Source: Chloroflexota bacterium (GTDB lineage: Bacteria > Chloroflexota > UBA6077). Taken from it: DNA of 8,687 nt. A program made the translations under genes and the position numbers. The DNA lies in NCBI GenBank assembly GCA_021786215.1, contig JAJYNT010000140.1, positions 1 through 8,687 on the forward strand, given 5' to 3'. The number at the start of each line of letters is the position of its first letter. Within the stretch, counting starts at the first letter, position 1. The notes under the pieces are model-generated. The model saw only the letters and a list, made by a program, of their open reading frames with translations. It had not been told where the DNA came from and ran no database searches. Shown piece after piece: positions 13 through 1,547 of the stretch.

Positions 13-117
13 CTAAACGACCAGCCTGATATCTTCGTCGCGGAGAAGCCAATTCGACGCTTCCTCCTTGTGCCGCGCGATGCCTCGCCGGTGGCACCAC
101 GCCCGGACCTTCGTCAC
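13..117 (-). CDS. Small ORF overlapping the receiver gene, possible HTH fragment
   Basis: This 34-codon frame starts with GTG, whose last two bases and the following A form the TGA stop of the upstream receiver gene (GTGA overlap, 114-117). That arrangement is typical of translational coupling. The product is basic and contains a Trp-Cys-His pair, then RGIARHK, a second Trp and a terminal acidic LRDEDI. The spacing loosely resembles the second half of excisionase-like (MerR/HTH_17) helix-turn-helix domains, but the first helix is missing. It could be the tail of a longer protein whose frame was lost, or chance. No domain can be assigned with certainty. The coding frame is only weakly supported. 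Confidence 0.3.
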   Translation of the reverse strand: MTKVRAWCHRRGIARHKEEASNWLLRDEDIRLVV

Positions 118-648
118 AGCAAAGTTGCTCGATCCCCGGCAAGGGGGGCTGGCCTGGAGAGCGCATACTCCAGCTTGCTCACCAGTTCGACCGGATCGAA
201 TGGTTTCGTGATGAAGCCCTGAACCCCCTCGTCGGCGAGCTCTTCCACTTCCTCGAACTGAAATGCGGTCACCACCACCACCGGGATTCTCTGCCACTTT
301 GGATCGCGCCGCAGCAGTCTGACAAGCCTGAACCCAAAAATACCCGGCAAACCTAGTGCTTCGACACAGTGAAGGTGATGGTTACTGTCATGCTGAGCGA
401 AGCGAAGCATCTCCACATTCCGCCGAGGAGATCCTTCGCTATCGCTCAGGATGACACTGGTCAGAACCATTGTGTCGCCGCACTAGATCGAGGATCACTG
501 CATCGCAATCCGCCACATCGAGGACGCCGCAGGCCTCCACCCCATCCTGAGCAGAAACCACCCTGTAACCAGCCTGCTCCAGATTCACCTGGATGATGTC
601 GAGCATCTCGGGCTCATCCTCCACCACGATCACCCTTGATCCGCCCAT
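114..648 (-). pseudogene. CheY-like single-domain response regulator, split by a 126-bp element
   Basis: A stand-alone receiver (REC) domain that would take a phosphoryl group from a histidine kinase. The start at 648 is chosen because an AGGAGG-type Shine-Dalgarno lies 8 bases upstream; an in-frame ATG at 681 lacks this. The frame runs through VIVVEDEP (acidic Mg-binding pair) to the phospho-acceptor Asp54 in VILDL, then enters a mobile element and stops at 439, giving a 69-residue truncated product. Deleting the element plus one CTAG copy (130 bases) rejoins LDL to GLPGIFGF in frame. The restored 134-residue protein also has Thr84 (VVVTAF) and Lys105 (ITKPF) and ends at 114. All catalytic residues are therefore present but divided, and the gene is almost certainly inactive. 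It is transcribed divergently from the OmpR-type regulator at 861. Unlike that neighbour it has no DNA-binding domain. Confidence 0.9.
353..486. mobile_element. 126-bp miniature inverted-repeat element, copy 1, with CTAG duplications
   Basis: The element occupies 357-482 and is flanked by CTAG at 353-356 and 483-486. Its ends are imperfect inverted repeats: TGCTTCGACACA on the left, and TGCGGCGACACA when the right end is reverse-complemented. Inside, the arms continue as GTCATGCTGAGCGAAGCGAA facing a matching GTCATCCTGAGCGATAGCGA, so the whole element can fold into one long hairpin with a short unpaired centre near 415-430. It encodes no transposase and would need one supplied in trans. The boundary is supported independently because removal of element plus one CTAG restores a receiver reading frame. 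The inner palindrome resembles dispersed repeats often mis-annotated as proteins with a HPERSEGS/LRFAQHD signature (from memory). Confidence 0.92.
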
Positions 649-860: not shown

Positions 861-1547
861 GTGAGAGTACTGGTAGTGGATGACGATCCATACATCGCCG
901 AGCTCATTGCGGTGGGCTTCAATCTCCAGTGGCGGGAAATCGAGGTCCTGGGAGCTCAGGACGGCAAGACAGCACTGGACATGGTCGAGCAGAAGCACCC
1001 CGACATGGTTCTTCTGGACATCACCCTGCCGGGCATCAATGGTTACGAAACGCTACGGCAGCTGCGCGAATTCTCCGACGTGCCCGTGATCATGCTCTCG
1101 GCACGAGACGCGCTGGTGGACAAGGTGAAGGGTTTGGAGTTGGGTGCGGACGACTACGTGACCAAGCCGTTCGAGCCCTTGGAACTCCTCGCCAGAACAA
1201 AGTCGCTCATGCGCAGACTGGGCATGCCGCGTCCGCTGGATCGATCCCCATCCTTTCGATACGGCGAGTTGGCGATGGATTTCGCCAGCCAGCAAGTTAG
1301 GCTAAGGGGGGAACCTGTTGCGCTAACGGTGATCGAATACAAGCTGCTCTACCACCTGGTGCGCAACGCTGGTCGTGTGCTGTCCCACAAGATGCTTCTG
1401 GCCCGGCTCTGGGGTGATGATCGTCTGGACGAGATCAACTACCTGAGGGTTTACATCTGGAGACTCCGACACAAGCTGGAGGATAATCCACGGCAGCCAA
1501 GATACATCGTCACGGAACATGGGCTTGGCTACCGATTCCAGGAGTAG
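861..1547 (+). CDS. OmpR/PhoB-family response regulator
   Basis: A 228-residue transcription factor of a two-component system; phosphorylation by a kinase would control DNA binding. The receiver domain spans about residues 1-120, with Asp7-Asp9 in VLVVDDD, phospho-acceptor Asp53 in VLLDITLPG, Ser80 in VIMLSA and Lys102 in YVTKPFEP. A winged-helix DNA-binding domain follows (about 132-226), with the family hallmarks YKLLYHLVRNAGRVLS, YLRVYIWRLRHKLE and the C-terminal GLGYRF. The start is the GTG at 861, because GGAG lies 5 bases upstream and the protein then begins directly at the first receiver strand. Longer in-frame extensions to 636 run through the AT-rich promoter and look non-coding. No partner histidine kinase is in the window, so it is an orphan here. 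Its TAG stop is part of the target duplication of the element that follows. Confidence 0.95.
   Translation: MRVLVVDDDPYIAELIAVGFNLQWREIEVLGAQDGKTALDMVEQKHPDMVLLDITLPGINGYETLRQLREFSDVPVIMLSARDALVDKVKGLELGADDYVTKPFEPLELLARTKSLMRRLGMPRPLDRSPSFRYGELAMDFASQQVRLRGEPVALTVIEYKLLYHLVRNAGRVLSHKMLLARLWGDDRLDEINYLRVYIWRLRHKLEDNPRQPRYIVTEHGLGYRFQE

Follow-up and report, generated by a model that had tools for sequence, protein, structure and literature searches.

What has split the receiver gene at the start of this Chloroflexota contig, what moved it there, and what became of the gene? The window analysed here is the whole contig of 8687 bases. A sequence-only reading had described a miniature element with a CTAG duplication splitting the receiver gene, and our analysis bore this out: an element at 357-482 lies between two CTAGs, and on the unjoined halves of the gene the Pfam model PF00072 matches consecutively, over positions 1-50 (35.6 bits) and then 50-110 (38.0 bits). 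We also found a second copy that had gone unmentioned, directly behind the stop codon of an OmpR-type regulator, which places two copies within 8.7 kb. The features are as follows.

114-352, minus strand: 3' portion of the interrupted receiver gene, carrying Thr84 and Lys105
353-356, no strand: left target duplication CTAG of copy 1 (TA at 354-355 under the IS630 rule)
357-482, no strand: miniature element, copy 1, a hairpin of 126 bp
483-486, no strand: right target duplication CTAG of copy 1 (TA at 484-485 under the IS630 rule)
487-648, minus strand: 5' portion of the interrupted receiver gene, encoding residues 1-54 with Asp54
861-1547, plus strand: OmpR-type response regulator with receiver PF00072 and Trans_reg_C PF00486 (Pfam), intact and divergent from the split receiver gene
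1544-1547, no strand: left target duplication GTAG of copy 2, whose last three bases (1545-1547) form the TAG stop of the neighbouring OmpR-type gene
1548-1673, no strand: miniature element, copy 2, 126 bp, in the same orientation as copy 1 and identical to it at 126 of 126 bases
1674-1677, no strand: right target duplication GTAG of copy 2

A repeated hairpin element

The two copies differ in their flanks (CTAG versus GTAG) and share their borders. Each has the ends TGCTTCGACACAG/TGCGGCGACACAATGG and is a near-palindrome that forms one long hairpin, with a DNA fold of -37.7 kcal/mol against -17.3 (s.d. 2.7) for shuffled sequences (z = -7.6; none of 200 shuffles was as good). The 126-bp element holds no transposase gene, and the two open frames entering copy 1 match only Response_reg in Pfam. 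We rejected the end repeats and the duplication as stand-alone evidence, since the best combination of 4-bp direct flanks with an ungapped inverted match reached at least 12/18 in 91 of 100 shuffled versions of the window. The evidence for the element consists of the exact second copy, the restoration of the reading frame and the hairpin, rather than of the end repeats alone. Searches with the element returned no match among phages and plasmids and none in Rfam; among viral contigs, two records contained stretches of the core but lacked the element ends, and two further patterns found nothing.

The mRNA of the OmpR-type regulator could end in the copy-2 hairpin, with an RNA fold of about -66 kcal/mol over 1545-1677. 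Separately, the two direct copies bracket this regulator, and recombination between them would delete it.

Intactness of the split receiver gene

The insertion site is a CTAG within receiver codons 55-56. Left unjoined, the frame of the 5' part enters the element and ends after 69 amino acids (stop codon at 439-441), and an open frame of 118 amino acids at 114-470 starts inside the element. Removing 130 bp and keeping one CTAG (130 mod 3 = 1) rejoins the frame into a product of 134 amino acids, MGGSRV...GDRATLL, which is a complete single-domain receiver with Asp54, Thr84 and Lys105 and is whole only once the halves are joined. This is the product that had been predicted for a deletion of 357-482 plus one CTAG. 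As it stands in the window, the receiver would have lost its function, a natural knock-out. The locus also carries a warning for annotation: a 98-amino-acid version of the 114-470 frame, a broken C-terminal half that starts inside the element, has already been entered in the protein database as a protein (P0030).

We compared the gene with its relatives in a search of about 5.8 billion proteins. The 71 matches comprised P0030, which is the window's own piece, 42 members (53-80% identical) of a separate family of single-domain receivers, and 28 more distant proteins. All 42 aligned relatives are unbroken through the insertion site, none carries the element there, and the alignment of residues 45-70 has only two insertion columns, near residue 46. 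Asp54 is present in 42/42, and Thr84 and Lys105 are each kept in 41/42. The comparison proposed in the sequence-only reading showed uninterrupted relatives, but the protein matches included no close allele with an empty site, the best intact relative being 80% identical. Among the genomes searched, the nearest to the window is the Chloroflexota MAG UBA6077 (G001), with MnmE 69% identical, the best of 6 MnmE matches in 29 genomes of its class. Its receiver is 64-66% identical to the window's. The receiver occurs in 12 of these 29 genomes, G001 included, at E <= 1e-20; none of the 15 receiver matches listed for them has an internal stop, though most are 35-48% identical and may not be orthologues.

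The joined receiver keeps 23 of the 24 columns that are invariant in the 42 relatives and all 30 nearly invariant ones. Residue 61 is Phe in the split receiver and Ser in every one of the 42; at the same position 144 other receivers have D, N, S, G or P and never F, in a comparison set in which the motif used was missing from 6 of 191 proteins. With each of the 42 relatives left out once as a control, 38 broke no invariant column, two broke one, one broke two and one broke six. Because 4/42 relatives thus break at least one such column, a single broken residue is unusual, not unique, and we regard S61F as a hint, not proof, that constraint on the receiver sequence is relaxed. Phe61 may reflect decay since the insertion or may be an older change. 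The insertion had been called recent and the rest of the gene intact; a recent event is favoured by the identical second copy and by a frame that is otherwise open, but Phe61 tempers the claim of intactness.

Protein clusters P0004 and P0074 share one longest contig (17340 bases), and P0005 and P0183 another (50100 bases), which suggests that receiver and OmpR-type regulator adjoin there too.

Related elements and the probable mobilising transposase

G001 holds at least 43 matches to the element (40 of 106 candidates were scored). Many share only the core, at about query positions 33-104, and some share the ends too; those read out measure about 96-210 bp and often sit in CTAG. Complete miniature elements flanked by CTAG at either end number 11, all distinct: seven from one read-out and four from a second, in which a pair was found at 11 of the 21 loci given. 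For a related end motif we counted 66 occurrences in G001; a reversed control pattern had 0. Elsewhere in the class, core matches at E <= 1e-6 appear in at least 10 of the 29 genomes, with at most 30 candidates scored per genome; when 12 such loci were read out by eye, L118, L124 and L127 had CTAG-type ends and the others none. Miniature-size CTAG-flanked pairs are also present in G018 (145 and 202 bp) and G006 (124 bp). Across 400 Chloroflexota genomes the window-type end motif matched 21, the control pattern matched more, and only the matches in G001 looked real. We tentatively entertain the idea, which we consider doubtful, that the palindromic core (TGTCATnCTGAGCGnAGCGAAGnATCTC and its mirror) spreads independently, alone or in tandem, and has been captured between IS630 ends of several types (GACACAGTG, CGACCAAACTGG, CCGCCACGGC).

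Other repeats came to light along the way. Three further palindromes lie within one 300-base stretch of the window, at 1902-1964, 2039-2104 and 2122-2186; the second and third have GTAG in an arm and presumably resemble REP-type repeats. This cluster is enclosed by 23-base inverted repeats (91%) at 1822-1844 and 2233-2255, separated by 388 bases; by eye, ACTGAGT may be directly repeated outside them, and the whole is perhaps another mobile element. Six G001 loci (L083, L094, L095, L144, L251 and L254) share a different palindromic repeat, which starts GGGC(C/G)CT, has TGCA on both sides and is 117 bp long in 4/6. At L126, in G025, the palindromic core forms a tandem array with a period of about 97 bases, without IS630-type ends.

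Two relatives carry IS630 elements in CTAG. At L306 998-2199, G001 has a CTAG-flanked element of 1202 bp encoding an IS630 transposase in two overlapping frames (167 and 259 amino acids), and its ends agree with those of the window element at 16/26 and 17/26 positions. As a control, seven other G001 insertion sequences reach at most 10/26, and among 60,000 random 26-mers 0.03% reach 16 and 0.005% reach 17. G006 has a CTAG-flanked element of 1197 bp that encodes an IS630 transposase (NF033545, 141 bits; PF13358), its ends agreeing with the window's at only 11/26 and 13/26. These are the two distinct, convincing CTAG-flanked IS630 elements among 33 loci tested for ends, in a search of four genomes that gave 13 IS630 matches in G001, 4 in G006, 1 in G018 and 14 in G019. 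In G019, 24/26 bases are shared between miniature element L127 and the end of L274, a partial IS630 element that matches NF033545 at 28 bits, under the cut-off of 100. The weight of the G006 locus lies in its paired ends and transposase only, because the related-end pattern is not enriched in the class over its control (13 matches in 4/29 genomes versus 26). G006 also contains a 1170-bp CTAG-flanked stretch (L279 1505-2674) whose ends match the window's at 16/26 and 16/26; among its listed open frames, read by eye, no transposase was recognised. This stretch and the sub-threshold L274 match slightly weaken the IS630 end match.

Several candidate partners were set aside. The 1374-bp CTAG-flanked pair around a decayed IS630 at L316 (G001) is taken as a chance pairing, its ends agreeing with each other at 12/20 and the left one with the window's at no more than 6/26. 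The 2018-bp CTAG-flanked stretch at L246 is not an autonomous partner but really a miniature element with a nested insertion sequence, which we take to be IS1182; the latter (L246 580-2444 in G001) is 1865 bp long, has 16-bp inverted ends GTTTCCGTTGGTTTTC and a 5-bp GAGCC duplication, and has its transposase split over two separate open frames. The ends of the rve-type elements L266-L268 were mismatched or not found. The IS701-like element L146 has no ends like the window's, and none were seen at the G001 loci matching DDE_5 (3), DDE_Tnp_1 (20) or rve (3), for many of which ends could not be placed.

The mover could instead belong to a different DDE family (IS701, or IS5- or IS481-like) that genuinely duplicates 4 bp at sites resembling CTAG, the likeness to IS630 ends being coincidental. 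Both window copies and L197 display 4-bp duplications, IS701 members duplicate 4 bp according to the sections of PMC2266710 drawn on here, and G001 has its own IS701-like element, L146 (PF13546), in TTAG; an IS481 member duplicates NCTAGN, as stated in a portion of PMC2516522. Yet the ends of L146, the sole IS701-like element compared, agree with the window's at only 10/26 and 7/26, window-like ends are missing from the G001 DDE_5, DDE_Tnp_1 and rve loci described above (for many of which ends were unplaceable), the bases outside CTAG do not repeat as an NCTAGN duplication would have them do, and in relatives four asymmetric flanks are consistent with duplication of 2 bp. We consider such a family an unlikely mover.

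Judged from the ends, an IS630-family transposase is the most likely mover; the IS630 elements themselves were observed in relatives' genomes, and such a transposase would have acted in the window's own. Very probably a non-autonomous MITE moved in trans by an IS630-family transposase broke the receiver gene and left an identical second copy behind the OmpR-type regulator. In the mechanism we propose, a transposase of this Tc1/mariner-type DDE group would recognise the inverted ends of the MITE and act on it in trans, inserting it at the CTAG inside codons 55-56 of the single-domain receiver gene. The frame would shift and stop after 69 residues, giving a product without everything behind Asp54 and its strand, Thr84 and Lys105 included. 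A second identical copy would have entered the GTAG containing the OmpR-type regulator's stop codon; that gene would stay intact and acquire a strong hairpin right behind it.

Target duplication, reversibility and known systems

Elements of the IS630 family target TA, which they duplicate on insertion, and IS630 itself reportedly prefers TA in CTAG, according to the title of Tenzen and Ohtsubo (1991) as cited in PMC2170065. TA is present in both flanks of both window copies, and CTAG is compatible with either a TA or a 4-bp duplication; if the element is G...C between TAs, CTAG flanks arise under both models. Four asymmetric flanks in relatives fit 2 bp: CTAG/CTAA at L294, TTAG/CTAG at L300, GTAG/CTAG at L127 and CTGG/CTGA at L297 (TG in L297). 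Flanks that fit 4 bp are GTAG/GTAG at window copy 2 and CTCT/CTCT at L197 in G001, and neither size fits L285, L286 or L301. The sequence-only reading had reported a CTAG duplication and ends fixed to the base. CTAG is indeed seen on both sides and copy 2 has the same borders, but with an IS630-type mover and four asymmetric flanks the true duplication may be TA rather than CTAG. The element would then measure 128 bp (356-483), which leaves its ends uncertain by one base and makes the earlier wording slightly too strong. The restored empty site is identical under both models.

Three further explanations concern what the insert is and whether it stays. A hairpin between short direct repeats is an arrangement classically prone to deletion by slippage, and it would suit a reversible switch in which the palindrome is lost precisely during replication and intact and split receiver alleles coexist. 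We find this very improbable: among matches from about 5.8 billion proteins no near-identical intact allele appeared, the best reaching 80%, and S61F suggests a receiver that is not under full selection. Still less probable is a REP-type palindrome, tagged by GTAG and moved by a RAYT. The strong hairpin, the GTAG at copy 2 and the palindromes nearby at 2039-2186, two with GTAG, are in its favour; however, REPs measure 20-40 bp (PMC3733652), against 126 bp and a duplicated flank at either end here, and copy 1 sits in CTAG instead of GTAG. Equally hard to credit is an assembly artefact in which the 126-bp repeat joined unrelated contigs of a metagenome. The short contig (8687 bases), the two identical repeats and the lack of a close empty-site allele among those found would fit, but a wrong join would not yield matching duplications at both copies, nor receiver halves in register.

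If the mover is of the IS630 type, its excision would be expected to leave a footprint and not the exact gene, judging from the cleavage pattern described in excerpts of PMC2170065. Because such excision should leave a footprint, exact reversion, if any, would more likely come from slippage across the hairpin.

The IS630-mobilised MITE favoured here has close counterparts. It resembles IS630/ISY100 (Tc1/mariner-type) elements in that a relative has an NF033545/PF13358 transposase between similar ends; it differs from them in lacking a transposase and in that both window copies resemble 4-bp duplications. IS701 elements share with it the apparent 4-bp duplications, with a TTAG-flanked member in G001, but differ in their ends, which agree at 10/26 at most. 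Its precedent is RUP, the repeat unit of pneumococcus, a MITE of 107 bp and 108 copies thought to be moved by IS630-Spn1; its inverted ends resemble IS630 ends and its targets hold TA, as given in passages of PMC2229807. RUP has another sequence and another host phylum, the favoured target here is CTAG, and the middle of our element is a palindrome also found without these ends in other Chloroflexota genomes. This miniature-element family was not found in print in the open-licence part of PubMed Central.

The window element is most likely a RUP-like IS630 MITE that would have knocked out a gene in an ordinary way, a clean example of a known process. In an uncultured Chloroflexota lineage it shows at base level how a MITE has disrupted a signalling gene; the biology is otherwise ordinary, and IS630 is named as the likely transposase family for these miniature elements. 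Should the palindromic core truly be captured between different IS630 ends, one hairpin parasite would be using several IS630 transposases across an entire class within the Chloroflexota.
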